A stretch of DNA of 35,371 bases, taken from positions 1 through 35,371 of the forward strand of contig JAHDSB010000166.1 of NCBI GenBank assembly GCA_018433015.1. Direction: 5' to 3'. Positions within the stretch are counted from its first letter, which is position 1; every line of letters begins with the position of its first letter. Made by a program: the position numbers and the translations under genes. The notes under the pieces are model-generated. The model worked only from the letters and a program-made list of their open reading frames with translations. It had not been told where the DNA came from and did not search any database. Source of the stretch: Clostridia bacterium. GTDB taxonomy: Bacteria > Bacillota > Peptococcia > DRI-13 > SV3-B141. Of the stretch, positions 6,899 to 11,884 are shown in pieces.

Positions 6899-6928
6899 TT
6901 GACAGAATCCGATTTTTAATGCTATAGT
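6899..6928 (+). promoter_or_regulatory. sigma-A-type promoter of the lar operon
   Basis: TTGACA (6899-6904) and TATAGT (6923-6928) are separated by 18 nt. This predicts a start near 6935 and a leader of about 140 nt before larE. No other plus-strand gene lies between it and larE. Confidence 0.7.
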
Positions 6929-6993
6929 TTTTTCGTAGCCACCATGAAGGTTGCTCCAACTCTAATTTTATTATTTTAATATCTTCAGACTAT

Positions 6994-7040
6994 AAAACCA
7001 TGAAGGTTCCTAAACCCTAGGGATATCTCCATGGTTTTTT
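6994..7040 (+). terminator. leader terminator (attenuator candidate) before larE
   Basis: AAAACCATG (6994-7002) pairs with CATGGTTTT (7030-7038), the helix can extend inward with a wobble pair, and the T-run 7035-7040 completes an intrinsic terminator. It lies downstream of the promoter at 6899-6928 and 33 nt before the larE ATG, with no gene between. Reading into larE therefore requires readthrough or an alternative fold. ACCATGAAGGTT in its 5' arm (6997-7008) also occurs exactly at 6941-6952. Confidence 0.7.
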
Positions 7041-7073
7041 GTATTTCTATCATACTCAAAAGGAAGAGTGATT

Positions 7074-7898
7074 ATGGAAAGTAAATTGCTTAAACTAAAA
7101 AACCGACTTCAAGAATTAAGAAGTGTCCTCGTTGCTTACTCAGGAGGAGTGGACAGTGCCCTGCTGTTGGCTGTAGCCCATAAAGTTCTGGGTGATAAGG
7201 CTATTGCTGTTACCGCCGTTTCAGAATTAATGACGGAGAAGGAAGTAGAGGAAGCCAAATTTTTTACAGCAAACCAGCAGATTCGCCATATGATCCTACC
7301 TGTAAGTGATCTAACTGATCCTGAATTTACTAATAACACTCCTAATCGTTGCTATTACTGTAAAAAAAGACGTTTTATTATGCTCAAAGATCTGGCTCAG
7401 CAGAAGGGTATAGATTGGGTCATAGAAGGTTCCAATCTAGATGACCTTAGTGATTATCGTCCCGGTGCAAGAGCTATCAAAGAATTAAATATCCTTAGTC
7501 CTTTACAGGAAGCAGGATTCACAAAAAAAGATGTCCGCAATTTGGCTCAAGAACTAGGACTTTCTGTATGGAATAAACCGTCTCAACCTTGTTTAGCTAC
7601 CCGTATAGCATACGGTACTACAATTACTAAAGAAGCTTTAAATCGTGTAAAAAAAGCAGAAGAATATCTTACTTCTCTCTTAGGCACTCACACTTTACGG
7701 GTCAGAGATCATAATACTATAGCTCGCTTAGAAATAAATCACGAAGATTTTTCTTTAATAGCTTTACCAGCTAATGCTAAAGCTATCTCTAATAAGTTAA
7801 AAAGTCTTGGTTTTTCTTATGTTACTTTAGATTTACAAGGCTATCGCCAAGGAAGTATGAATGAAATATTACAACCAGGGGAGTTGAAACATAAATGA
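7074..7898 (+). CDS. larE: ATP-dependent sacrificial sulfur transferase LarE
   Basis: LarE adenylates the carboxylates of the dicarboxylated pyridinium mononucleotide made by LarB and converts them to thiocarboxylates for the nickel-pincer nucleotide (NPN) cofactor. The 274-residue protein has a PP-loop SGGVDSA (about 23-29) and an NRCYYCKKRRF segment with a CxxC pair (C93, C96). A third cysteine, C173, in KPSQPCLATR sits where the sulfur-donating cysteine of Lactobacillus plantarum LarE lies. Three cysteines together suggest the cluster-carrying type of LarE that recycles sulfur instead of sacrificing its own cysteine; this is inference from family knowledge. I chose ATG 7074, 7 nt after AGGAAG. 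A GTG at 7068 lies too close to that site. It overlaps larB by 4 nt. Confidence 0.93.
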   Translation: MESKLLKLKNRLQELRSVLVAYSGGVDSALLLAVAHKVLGDKAIAVTAVSELMTEKEVEEAKFFTANQQIRHMILPVSDLTDPEFTNNTPNRCYYCKKRRFIMLKDLAQQKGIDWVIEGSNLDDLSDYRPGARAIKELNILSPLQEAGFTKKDVRNLAQELGLSVWNKPSQPCLATRIAYGTTITKEALNRVKKAEEYLTSLLGTHTLRVRDHNTIARLEINHEDFSLIALPANAKAISNKLKSLGFSYVTLDLQGYRQGSMNEILQPGELKHK

Positions 7899-8659
7899 AA
7901 GAAGATCTTAAGCATATCTTAAAGAGCATTCAAGCAGGAACTCTTTCTGTCGAGGATGGTATGGAGGCCTTAAAAGATCTGCCCTTCAAGGATTTAGGGT
8001 TTGCTAAAATTGATAATCACCGAGAATTACGGCAAAATTATCCCGAAGTTATCTTTTGTCAAAATAAAACCCCTCAACAAGTAAAAGAAATTATAAATTA
8101 CTTAGCTACTCAAAGCGTAAATATCCTGGCTAGCCGTGCTAATGATGAAGTATATCAAGCTGTCAAGGAAGTAATCCCTGAAGCAGAATACCATCCTCTC
8201 CCTCGCATGATAGTAGTAAATAGACACACTATTAACCAAAACAAAGGGAAAATTGTTGTTGTAAGTGCCGGCACAGCCGATTTGCCGGTAGCTGAAGAAG
8301 CAGTTCTCACCGCAGAAATCATGGGAAATAAGGTGGAACGCTTATATGACGTAGGGGTGGCAGGTATCCACCGGTTATTAGCCCATAAAGATATTTTACG
8401 GAAAGCCAATGTTGTTATAGTTGTAGCAGGTATGGAAGGGGCTCTGGCCAGCGTCGTTGGTGGGTTAGTATCCCGCCCGGTCATAGCTGTACCTACCAGT
8501 GTAGGTTATGGTGCTAATTTTAATGGTTTGTCGGCCCTTTTAAGCATGTTAAACAGTTGTGCCGCCGGTGTCGGTGTAGTAAATATTGATAATGGTTTTG
8601 GAGCCGGTCGTCTGGCCGCAATTATAAATGAAGATCAAGAAAATAACGAGGTGAAATAA
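7895..8659 (+). CDS. larB: nickel-pincer cofactor biosynthesis carboxylase/hydrolase LarB
   Basis: LarB carboxylates nicotinic acid adenine dinucleotide at C5 of the pyridinium ring and hydrolyses its phosphoanhydride bond, the first step of NPN synthesis. The 254-residue protein has the PurE-like C-terminal fold: VVVSAGTADLPVAEEA, then VVVAGMEGALASVVGGLV, then AVPTSVGYGANFNGLSALL. An N-terminal segment (about 1-110) is specific to LarB. Its start overlaps the larE stop (ATGA), so translation is coupled, and larC begins 2 bp after its stop. Confidence 0.95.
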   Translation: MKEDLKHILKSIQAGTLSVEDGMEALKDLPFKDLGFAKIDNHRELRQNYPEVIFCQNKTPQQVKEIINYLATQSVNILASRANDEVYQAVKEVIPEAEYHPLPRMIVVNRHTINQNKGKIVVVSAGTADLPVAEEAVLTAEIMGNKVERLYDVGVAGIHRLLAHKDILRKANVVIVVAGMEGALASVVGGLVSRPVIAVPTSVGYGANFNGLSALLSMLNSCAAGVGVVNIDNGFGAGRLAAIINEDQENNEVK

Positions 8660-8661
8660 TC

Positions 8662-9906
8662 ATGAAAACAGCATATTTTGATTGTTTTTCAGGGATCAGC
8701 GGAAATATGGTCATCGGCGCCTTTCTTGATGCCGGTGTTCCCCTGGAAAAGTTAGTACAAGAACTTAAAAAGATTCCTATGGATGATGAATACGAATTTA
8801 TTACAGAAAGAGTCAGCAAATTGGAGATAGGAGCTTATCATTTCGATGTTAAGTTACCTCACCACCACAACCATCATAGTGATCAACAACATCATCAACA
8901 TGGCCATAATCATGGCCACCATCATCACCGCAATTTTAAAGACATTGCTCTCCTCCTGGAACAAAGCAGTTTATCCTCTTCTGTTAAGGATTTAGCCTTA
9001 CATACCTTTAAAAGATTAGGTTTAGCTGAAGCTAAAGTACACCAATGCTCTTTAGAAGATGTACATTTTCATGAAGTTGGAGCAGTTGATACTATTATTG
9101 ATATTGTAGGTGCAGCCTTCTGTTTAGACTATTTAGGCATAGAAAAAGTAATCTCCTCACCCTTGCATGTGGGAAGCGGTATGGTTAATTGTGCCCATGG
9201 CTTAATGCCTATACCTGCCCCTGCCACGGCAGAGCTGTTAAAAGGAGCTGCCTTCTATAGCTCTGATATTCGCGGTGAGCTAGTTACACCAACAGGTGCT
9301 GCTATCATAACAACTCTAACCCAGGAATTTGTTCCCCTTCCTCCTTTACAAATGGATACTGTTGCCTATGGAGCAGGTACTATGGATCTAGAAATCCCTA
9401 ATATTTTACGCCTCTTTATTGGAGATCTAAAAAAAAACTCTTATGATACCGATAAATCCACAGTAATTGAAACAAATATTGACGATATGAATCCGGAAAT
9501 TTGCACACATCTGATGGAAAAACTCTTTAAAGCTGGAGCTGTAGATGTTTTCTTTACCCCTATCTATATGAAAAAAAATCGTCCCGGTATGCTTATATCC
9601 GTCATTAGCAATCTCCCCGATCCCCAACCTTTAATTGACATAGTTTTAACTGAAACTTCTACCCTTGGTGTTCGTACGTATCAAGCTAAGCGCTACAAAC
9701 TAAAAAAAGCTATGGAAACCCTTGATACTATCTACGGTCCTGTACGAATAAAATCAGGATATGCCGGTTCAGAAAGAAAAAATATTGCTCCAGAATTTGA
9801 AGATTGTCGTGTCATAGCAGAAAAAACAGGAAAACCATTAAAAAATATTTACCAGGAAATAATTAATATATATTATGAAAAATATCTGAAGAACAAAACA
9901 AAGTAA
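8662..9906 (+). CDS. larC: nickel insertion protein LarC (CTP-dependent cyclometallase), single frame
   Basis: LarC inserts nickel into the pyridinium-bisthiocarboxylate nucleotide using CTP, completing the NPN cofactor. The 414-residue protein starts MKTAYFDCFSGISGNMVIGA, the usual N-terminus. It has a His-rich loop at about 67-89 with 14 histidines, a probable nickel store or delivery site, and family segments VHFHEVGAVDTIIDIVG, TPTGAAIITTL and ETNIDDMNPE. In Lactobacillus plantarum LarC is made from larC1 and larC2 by a programmed frameshift; here it is one uninterrupted frame. Start: ATG after GAGGTG. A strong terminator follows. No larA (lactate racemase) is in the window, so the enzyme that uses the cofactor must be encoded elsewhere. 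Confidence 0.95.
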   Translation: MKTAYFDCFSGISGNMVIGAFLDAGVPLEKLVQELKKIPMDDEYEFITERVSKLEIGAYHFDVKLPHHHNHHSDQQHHQHGHNHGHHHHRNFKDIALLLEQSSLSSSVKDLALHTFKRLGLAEAKVHQCSLEDVHFHEVGAVDTIIDIVGAAFCLDYLGIEKVISSPLHVGSGMVNCAHGLMPIPAPATAELLKGAAFYSSDIRGELVTPTGAAIITTLTQEFVPLPPLQMDTVAYGAGTMDLEIPNILRLFIGDLKKNSYDTDKSTVIETNIDDMNPEICTHLMEKLFKAGAVDVFFTPIYMKKNRPGMLISVISNLPDPQPLIDIVLTETSTLGVRTYQAKRYKLKKAMETLDTIYGPVRIKSGYAGSERKNIAPEFEDCRVIAEKTGKPLKNIYQEIINIYYEKYLKNKTK

Positions 9907-9976: not shown

Positions 9977-10834
9977 TTAGTTTCCTCTATTAACCGTATA
10001 CATATTTTCGGCAAACTTATTTAAGTCATTTGCTGCTGTGGCTAGGCCAGAACTTGACGCTGTTACCTCTTCCATAACGTCAGCTTGTTCTTCCATAGCC
10101 TTTTTTATTATTTCTACCTTATGGGACAATTGAAATATACCGTCCTGTATTTTTTTTAATTCGTCAGTTATTTCTTTAACAGAATCAGAACTTTCCACTG
10201 CTAATTTTCTAATCTCATCGGCTACAACGCCAAAGCCCTTACCCATTTCCCCTACACGAGCCGCTTCAATAGCAGCATTCAAGCCTAAAAGATTAGTTTG
10301 ATCTGCTATTTTTTTAATAAAACTTATCATATTATCCGTATTGGCCACACTAGAATTTAATAATTTCCCCAGCTCATTAAGATCCCGTGCTGTATTCGTT
10401 AATTCTTGAGTGGAAGCAGCTACTTGTTGCATCGATGACGATAAATCTTGAGATGACTGATCCAGGCTTTGGGATACCCCTAAAATATTGTAGTATGTAT
10501 CAACATTTTGGTATGTCACAATGCAACCTAGTACGTACCCATCATTTTCTATAGGAGTAGCACAGCATAAATAAGGAACTCCTATCCTCGATTCATTTTT
10601 ATTCATAATCATAACAAGTTTTTGCCCACTTTTTATACATTGATCAGGTATTGACCCTTCTTGCAAAGCATCCCCTACAGTAATACCCAGGTCTATTGTT
10701 TCGCCAGGTACATATTCTAAACATTTCTCTAGATCATACACGGCAACACTATAATCCTCTTCTGTTATGGGATTAATGAAATTTGCTATATTTACCAACT
10801 GTCCTAATAGCTCTTGTGCAGCTTCTGTTTGCAT
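9977..10834 (-). CDS. soluble methyl-accepting chemotaxis protein, paralog 1
   Basis: This 285-residue cytoplasmic chemoreceptor has no membrane segment. Residues 1-115 form a small sensory domain (segments [18 protein letters not shown] and [19 protein letters not shown]) that I cannot assign to a named family. A coiled-coil MCP signalling domain follows, with the conserved hairpin tip [20 protein letters not shown] and [12 protein letters not shown] (about 172-207). Size and architecture resemble short soluble receptors such as Bacillus subtilis YfmS. The start follows GAGGGA. A close paralog lies 198 bp upstream on the same strand (11033-11884). The paralogs share residue patterns throughout and near-identical DNA over the signalling tip. 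The ligand is unknown. Confidence 0.88.
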
Positions 10835-11032: not shown

Positions 11033-11884
11033 TTATTTATTAATCTTATACATATTCTCTGCATAATTGTTCAAGTCATTTGCCGCTGTTGCCAAGCTAG
11101 AGCTTGATACCGTCACTTCTTCAATAACCCCAGATTGCTCTTCCATGGCCTTCTGAATCATATCTACTTTCTGGGACAGCTGAATTATACCCTCTTGTAT
11201 TTTCTTTAATTCGTCAGTTATTCCTTTAACAGAGTCGGAGCTTTCGTTGGCCAGCTTTCTAATTTCATCGGCTACAACGCCAAAACCCTTACCCATTTCT
11301 CCTACACGAGCCGCTTCAATAGCAGCATTCAAGCCTAAAAGGTTAGTTTGATCAGCAATCTTCTTAATAAAACTAATCATATCATCTGTATTAGCAACAT
11401 TTGCATTTAATAATTTCCCCAGTTCATTAAGAGCTCGTGTGGTTTCCGTCAATTCCTCGGTGGAAGCAGCAACTTCCTGCATAGACGCCGATAAATCTTG
11501 AGATGATTGATCTAATCTCTGGGAAACTCCTAAAACATTATAATATGTATCCAAGTTTTGATTTGTGATGATACAGCCTATTATTGTTCCATTATCTTCT
11601 ATCGGTGTTGCACAGCTCAAATAAGGTATTCCTATTCTGGATTCATTTTTGTTCATAATTAACACAAGTCTTTTGCCGCTTTTTATACAACGATCAGGCA
11701 TTGTTCCTTCTTTTAGAGGACTTCCTACCTTAATTCTCAGATTTATTTTTTCGCCAGGCACATATGCTAATAGCTTCTCACGATCATATACAAAAACACC
11801 ATAGTCTTCCTCGGTAATAGGATTAATTATCTCTACAAATTTTGCTAATTGTCCCAATGTCTCTTGTGTACCTTTTATCCTCAT
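11033..11884 (-). CDS. soluble methyl-accepting chemotaxis protein, paralog 2
   Basis: At 283 residues it has the same two-part layout as its neighbour at 9977-10834: an unassigned sensory domain (about 1-115; segments [18 protein letters not shown] and [19 protein letters not shown]) followed by an MCP signalling coiled coil with the tip [20 protein letters not shown]. No membrane segment is present. The cysteine pair in the first copy (YLCCAT) is a single cysteine here (YLSCAT), and charges around the sensory domain differ, so the two may sense different or differently tuned signals. The start follows GTGAGGGAAA. It has its own terminator and an upstream block shared with paralog 1, so the duplication included the control region. 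Confidence 0.88.

Follow-up and report, generated by a model that had tools for sequence, protein, structure and literature searches.

The lar operon examined here lies in a 35,371-nt stretch of Clostridia bacterium DNA (the window), where a promoter is followed by an intrinsic terminator with no gene in the promoter-to-larE interval. LarE, LarB and LarC all exceed the cut-offs of their curated NCBIfam models. The features of the leader and of the operon are listed in Table 1.

Table 1. The larE leader and the lar operon (positions in the window)
Feature	Position	Strand	Description
Sigma-A-type promoter	6899-6928	+	TTGACA-18-TATAGT, TG ahead of the -10 (extended -10); promoter-like by sequence
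H1, upstream hairpin	6937-6955	+	Loop AUGAA at 6944-6948; stem of 3+3 bp with one C.U mismatch
H2, second hairpin	6996-7008	+	AACC-AUGAA-GGUU; loop 7000-7004; putative antiterminator
Intrinsic terminator	6994-7040	+	Hairpin 6994-7038, 5' arm contains H2; U tract 7035-7040
larE	7074-7898	+	ATP-dependent sacrificial sulfur transferase; TIGR00268, 329 bits vs cut-off 150
larB	7895-8659	+	NF033503, 303 bits vs cut-off 175
larC	8662-9906	+	LarC1 and LarC2 parts in one frame; PF01969, TIGR00299, NF052512

The leader contains two exact copies of ACCATGAAGGTT, at 6941-6952 and 6997-7008, i.e. 56 nt apart. The window holds no other copy and the whole 3.75-Mb assembly only three, with about 0.45 copies per assembly being expected as estimated from simple base counts; the third copy belongs to the leader of another operon whose arrangement is identical in kind. 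Each copy forms its own small hairpin, CC-AUGAA-GG. Folded in isolation, H1 adopts the structure.(((.(((.....))).))). with -5.6 kcal/mol, and it begins at about +3 of the predicted transcript, that is, at the predicted 5' end, while H2 by itself reaches -2.4 kcal/mol. The terminator folds with about -16.8 kcal/mol (z = -2.7; 3 of 200 shuffles were equally good), and it was not listed by a simple terminator scan of the window, presumably because its stem is mismatched and its loop is long. As H2 is located within the 5' arm of the terminator, the two structures are mutually exclusive. The leader thus meets the general criteria for an attenuator, namely a promoter and an exclusive antiterminator/terminator pair ahead of the first gene, which is established here by sequence and folding only; signal-dependent read-through is inferred. 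An earlier note, made from the sequence alone, had claimed this promoter, this terminator without a gene before larE, and the exact duplication of the 12-mer, and all three claims held, the second by folding against shuffles and by gene content. Its claim that the repeats are complementary to the 3' arm of the terminator held as well, since base pairing is possible between ACCATG in copy 1 and CATGGT in that arm, and is refined in that the conserved feature is a tandem of pentaloop hairpins, not a pair of rival partners for one arm.

Tandem hairpins were also found upstream of larE at other loci (L002/L003, L007, L009, L011, L012, L014), with the relatives spanning several families, and a single hairpin copy precedes larE at L005. 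The source genome carries a second element (L140 2309-2450, G000:C52) with a hairpin pair 93 nt apart, followed by genes for an ECF-transporter S component (motif PMHIPVLLGG) and a SAM methyltransferase. This gene pair recurs downstream of the element in other families, and import of a nickel compound or a metallophore is a possible function. Pattern searches within the class revealed the hairpin pair before CbiM/NikM importers, and within the phylum before CbiM, DUF3842-CooT-FmdE and methyltransferase/NikA-like genes. Applied without reference to H1 or gene function, a covariance model built from H2 and the terminator had hits in 161 of 398 phylum genomes at E<=0.05, chance terminators included, and in 18 of the 46 class genomes at E<=0.01. 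Carriers found via other larE loci, with gene names assigned by eye from the translated sequence, include Petroclostridium sp. X23, Clostridium bowmanii and a Thermincola assembly, where the element stands ahead of cbiM, as well as Thermohalobacter berrensis (ahead of fmdE) and Mobilitalea sibirica (ahead of a NikA-like gene). Hits of the DNA pattern that fell within coding sequence, or within CRISPR repeats carrying CCCATGAAGGG, were discarded as false positives. The CRISPR repeats GTTTCAATCCACGCACCCATGAAGGGTGCGAC of four loci (L161, L166, L177, L178) share the core CCATGAAGG by coincidence and confuse pattern searches. Because the tandem hairpins also precede a second operon and nickel-type genes across Bacillota, the element is a widespread family there and not a feature of lar alone.

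The genes putatively controlled by the family were assessed from the first gene after the 46 best model-chosen elements; 43 of these first genes belong to the kinds named below. The tally comprised 10 CbiM, 8 LarE, 6-7 ECF-S, 5 FmdE, 4 methyltransferases, 3 NikA-like binding proteins, 1 related permease, 2 CobN-like proteins, 2 CooT and 2 DUF3842, together with 3 unrelated others. The presence of CooT, LarC and NikA among the targets suggests nickel as the metal; the naming of CbiM and the occurrence of CobN make cobalt, or both metals, possible. Elements were also observed before genes of ZnuABC-type metal ABC transporters (L153, L232), so the regulon may exceed nickel, unless these genes mark further nickel/cobalt importers. 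In addition, element-like terminators precede MvhD/HdrA-type redox genes (L195 1450-1520 on the minus strand, and L194), the true membership of which is uncertain.

All three stems of the leader are supported by covariation. In a set of 21 H1 hairpins, mostly found by sequence pattern, 92.9% of the cells outside the search pattern were paired, compensatory changes were present, and none of 500 shuffles reached the score; H2 (83% paired) and the terminator in relatives (89% paired) likewise scored above every one of their 500 shuffles. Upstream of 50 elements picked by the H2/terminator model, a search for hairpins of five or more contiguous bp capped by an A-N-G-R-A or AGAA loop yielded H1 in 28 cases, as compared to a mean of 1.9 and a maximum of 6 in shuffled upstream sequence. 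In the model-chosen elements the closing pair of H1 varies (C-G, U-A, U-G) and the loop is constant. Variation of the stem arms and the closing pair around a fixed loop favours recognition of an RNA loop and disfavours a DNA operator. About one third to one half of the elements lack a canonical H1, the tetraloop AGAA sometimes replaces the pentaloop, and a leader contains 1-4 hairpins with about 22-125 nt between copies. In one cbiM leader (L164 1420-1760) three tandem AUGAA hairpins are accompanied by a CC-AAGAA-GG hairpin in the terminator. At other loci, 22 of 42 H1-bearing elements have a promoter of the sigma-A type whose end is 2-30 nt (in most cases 10-18 nt) ahead of H1 (shuffles: 4.4), which places H1 near the 5' end of the RNA. 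Across 92 elements the median energy is -5.0 kcal/mol for H2 vs -23.3 kcal/mol for the terminator, so termination is expected by default unless something assists H2. Kissing of the H1 and H2 loops was rejected, as U/C exchanges and AGAA or AAGAA loops occur without a matching change in the partner.

The covariation check with other larE leaders had been suggested in the earlier note, and its result, a leader conserved in relatives with covarying stems, supports the proposed attenuator-like switch operating by competing folds or a repeat-bound protein. The guessed link to nickel is supported by the nickel-uptake genes that follow the element, a response to nickel being inferred and not shown, and the restriction of that proposal to lar is superseded by the wider family.

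We consider it somewhat more likely than not (roughly 0.6) that the leader is a nickel-linked transcription attenuator on which an unidentified factor, probably a protein, binds the loops and favours read-through at nickel shortage; it is inferred that a factor binds, that it is a protein, that nickel is the signal and that shortage is the condition for read-through. According to this model transcription would start just before H1, and H1 and then H2 would emerge, each displaying an A-N-G-R-A pentaloop. Unaided, the terminator would overrun H2 and RNA polymerase would stop before larE. The loops would be bound by a factor acting in trans, for which a non-ANTAR RNA-binding protein is the best candidate, with H1 serving as its loading site and H2 as the antiterminator, and by holding H2 the bound factor would let the polymerase pass into the lar genes. 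Most of the shared targets import nickel or cobalt, which makes nickel scarcity the most plausible condition for read-through, and the variable number (1-4) and spacing of the hairpins suit a bound factor. What the sequence analysis demonstrates is the anatomy, its conservation and covariation, the shared target genes, and that neither ANTAR nor CooT is needed. Several points speak against the protein-factor model or weaken it: no binder has been identified and the nickel response is unmeasured, cobalt-type genes are among the targets, a canonical H1 is missing from many elements, co-regulation of lar with importers at nickel shortage has no obvious logic for lar, and the window's own H1 has a mismatched stem.

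The main alternative, less likely but possible, is a direct riboswitch, in which Ni2+, Co2+ or the nickel-pincer nucleotide would bind the paired A-N-G-R-A loops and tip the competition of H2 with the terminator; such ligand binding is hypothetical. In its favour, no protein family has yet been found that is common to all element genomes (ANTAR is missing from six, CooT from 32 of 108), and the tandem of identical loops recalls the layout of the guanidine-II (mini-ykkC) riboswitch, which consists of two ACGR hairpins. Against it, nothing is conserved outside two small hairpins, the H1-H2 distance is loose, H1 is frequently absent, AGAA can substitute for the pentaloop, and a metal that stabilises H2 would turn importers on at metal plenty. 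Moreover, Rfam riboswitch models do not match the element: a search of the window, and of 15 leaders with E up to 5, against the covariance models of Rfam 15 returned no family for it, in agreement with the earlier statement that no known riboswitch was recognisable. The guanidine-II RNA resembles the element in having two like hairpins and in its A-C-G-R loop, close to the A-Y-G-R-A of the element, but its loops are tetraloops, its targets are unrelated and its Rfam model gives no match. The NiCo (czcD) riboswitch is a multi-stem junction aptamer located before exporters. It shares with the element an RNA-based control tied to nickel/cobalt, but again its Rfam model does not match, and the element precedes importers and cofactor genes.

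Binding of both hairpins by an ANTAR antiterminator protein, as in eut, nas and ami operons, is very unlikely. The architecture corresponds, with two small hairpins, the second reaching into the terminator's 5' arm (PMC3369931, PMC8934654), and an ANTAR gene is present in 34 of 40 element genomes tested. The remaining six, from four families (G005, G374, G138, G412, G216, G191), lack such a gene, however, and two of them, G374 and G191, are single-contig assemblies. ANTAR targets such as those of EutV, NasR and AmiR carry hexanucleotide loops with A1 and G4; the loops of the element share the invariant A at position 1 and a conserved G, but they are five-base A-N-G-R-A loops, sometimes AGAA. 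A restricted linker is likewise not found: the action of EutV is abolished by a 20-nt longer linker (PMC8934654), whereas the spacing in the element varies by 100 nt, between about 22 and 125 nt, and its targets are nickel genes. Thus, among the tests for an ANTAR target, only the hairpin architecture was met, and those for loop type, presence of the protein and linker were not. The two ANTAR genes of the source genome are neighbours of amt/gln and eut genes and have separate hexaloop tandems, C[AANGNN]G, and ANTAR gene neighbourhoods inspected in the element-bearing order contained nitrogen genes (amt, glnK, glnA), eut genes or unrelated genes. ANTAR as a necessary factor was rejected on the grounds of the six genomes and the separate hexaloop targets. 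Hexaloop tandems C[AANGNN]G with terminators were seen beside amt/gln and eut at L210 5376-5575, L211 2256-2330, L212, L215, L216 and L217.

We regard it as similarly improbable that CooT, a nickel-binding protein that Pfam names CO dehydrogenase accessory protein, is the RNA-binding sensor. CooT genes sit in element operons, and CooT and the element co-occur across 398 genomes with an odds ratio of 14, uncorrected for kinship. Against this, CooT was found neither in the source genome nor in most element-carrying genomes of the class, and it is absent from 32 of the 108 genomes with stronger element matches. From these co-occurrences and absences we infer that CooT is likely a target and not the sensor.

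There is also very little to recommend the view that a repressor binds the repeats as DNA operators (inverted repeat AACC-N5-GGTT), with an incidental terminator. Each copy is indeed an imperfect palindrome, but the arms change with compensation around a fixed loop, the distance from the promoter down to H1 is fairly constant, and H2 is part of the terminator stem. LarR is a DNA-binding protein, as is NikR (PMC2667541); both resemble the element in controlling lactate-racemase cofactor or nickel uptake genes, but the element is a transcribed attenuator. Finally, leader-peptide attenuation via short MKV... frames starting in each loop, suggested by ATG AAG GTT in both window copies, is all but excluded, as no ribosome site precedes these frames, the loop ATG is ACG, AAG or absent in many homologues, and the frames are not conserved.

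A bolder reading, which we consider somewhat more likely than not, is that tandem A-N-G-R-A attenuators over nickel import and nickel-cofactor genes form an undescribed nickel-shortage RNA regulon in many anaerobic Bacillota, and that these attenuators are read either by a regulator of a new kind, which binds RNA and responds to nickel, or directly by the metal. The open-access literature we searched, including RNA-motif papers, contained no description of the element; subscription papers were mostly outside this search, and an earlier description is not excluded. The element appears to be an attenuator of the tandem-hairpin kind in which both the loop code and the regulon are new. Nickel is required by the lactate racemases, hydrogenases and carbon monoxide dehydrogenases of anaerobic Bacillota, and for the control that is missing in these organisms the element offers a concrete candidate. 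If the reading is true, the gain would be either a new class of metal regulator that binds RNA or a metal riboswitch of very small size; several genes of poorly understood function (DUF3842, FmdE-like, and the ECF-S component with its methyltransferase) would join the nickel economy, and the ANTAR-type tandem-hairpin design would have a parallel that uses another loop code.

Elsewhere in the window, two very similar soluble chemoreceptor-like proteins are encoded in tandem directly downstream of lar (9977-10834 and 11033-11884, both on the minus strand), an apparent duplication. A T-box leader (Rfam RF00230, 16546-16842, plus strand) scores barely above the gathering score, and a TPP riboswitch (Rfam RF00059, 15071-15176, minus strand) precedes the genes of an ABC transporter with a binding protein that resembles the NMT1-like thiamine-precursor type.
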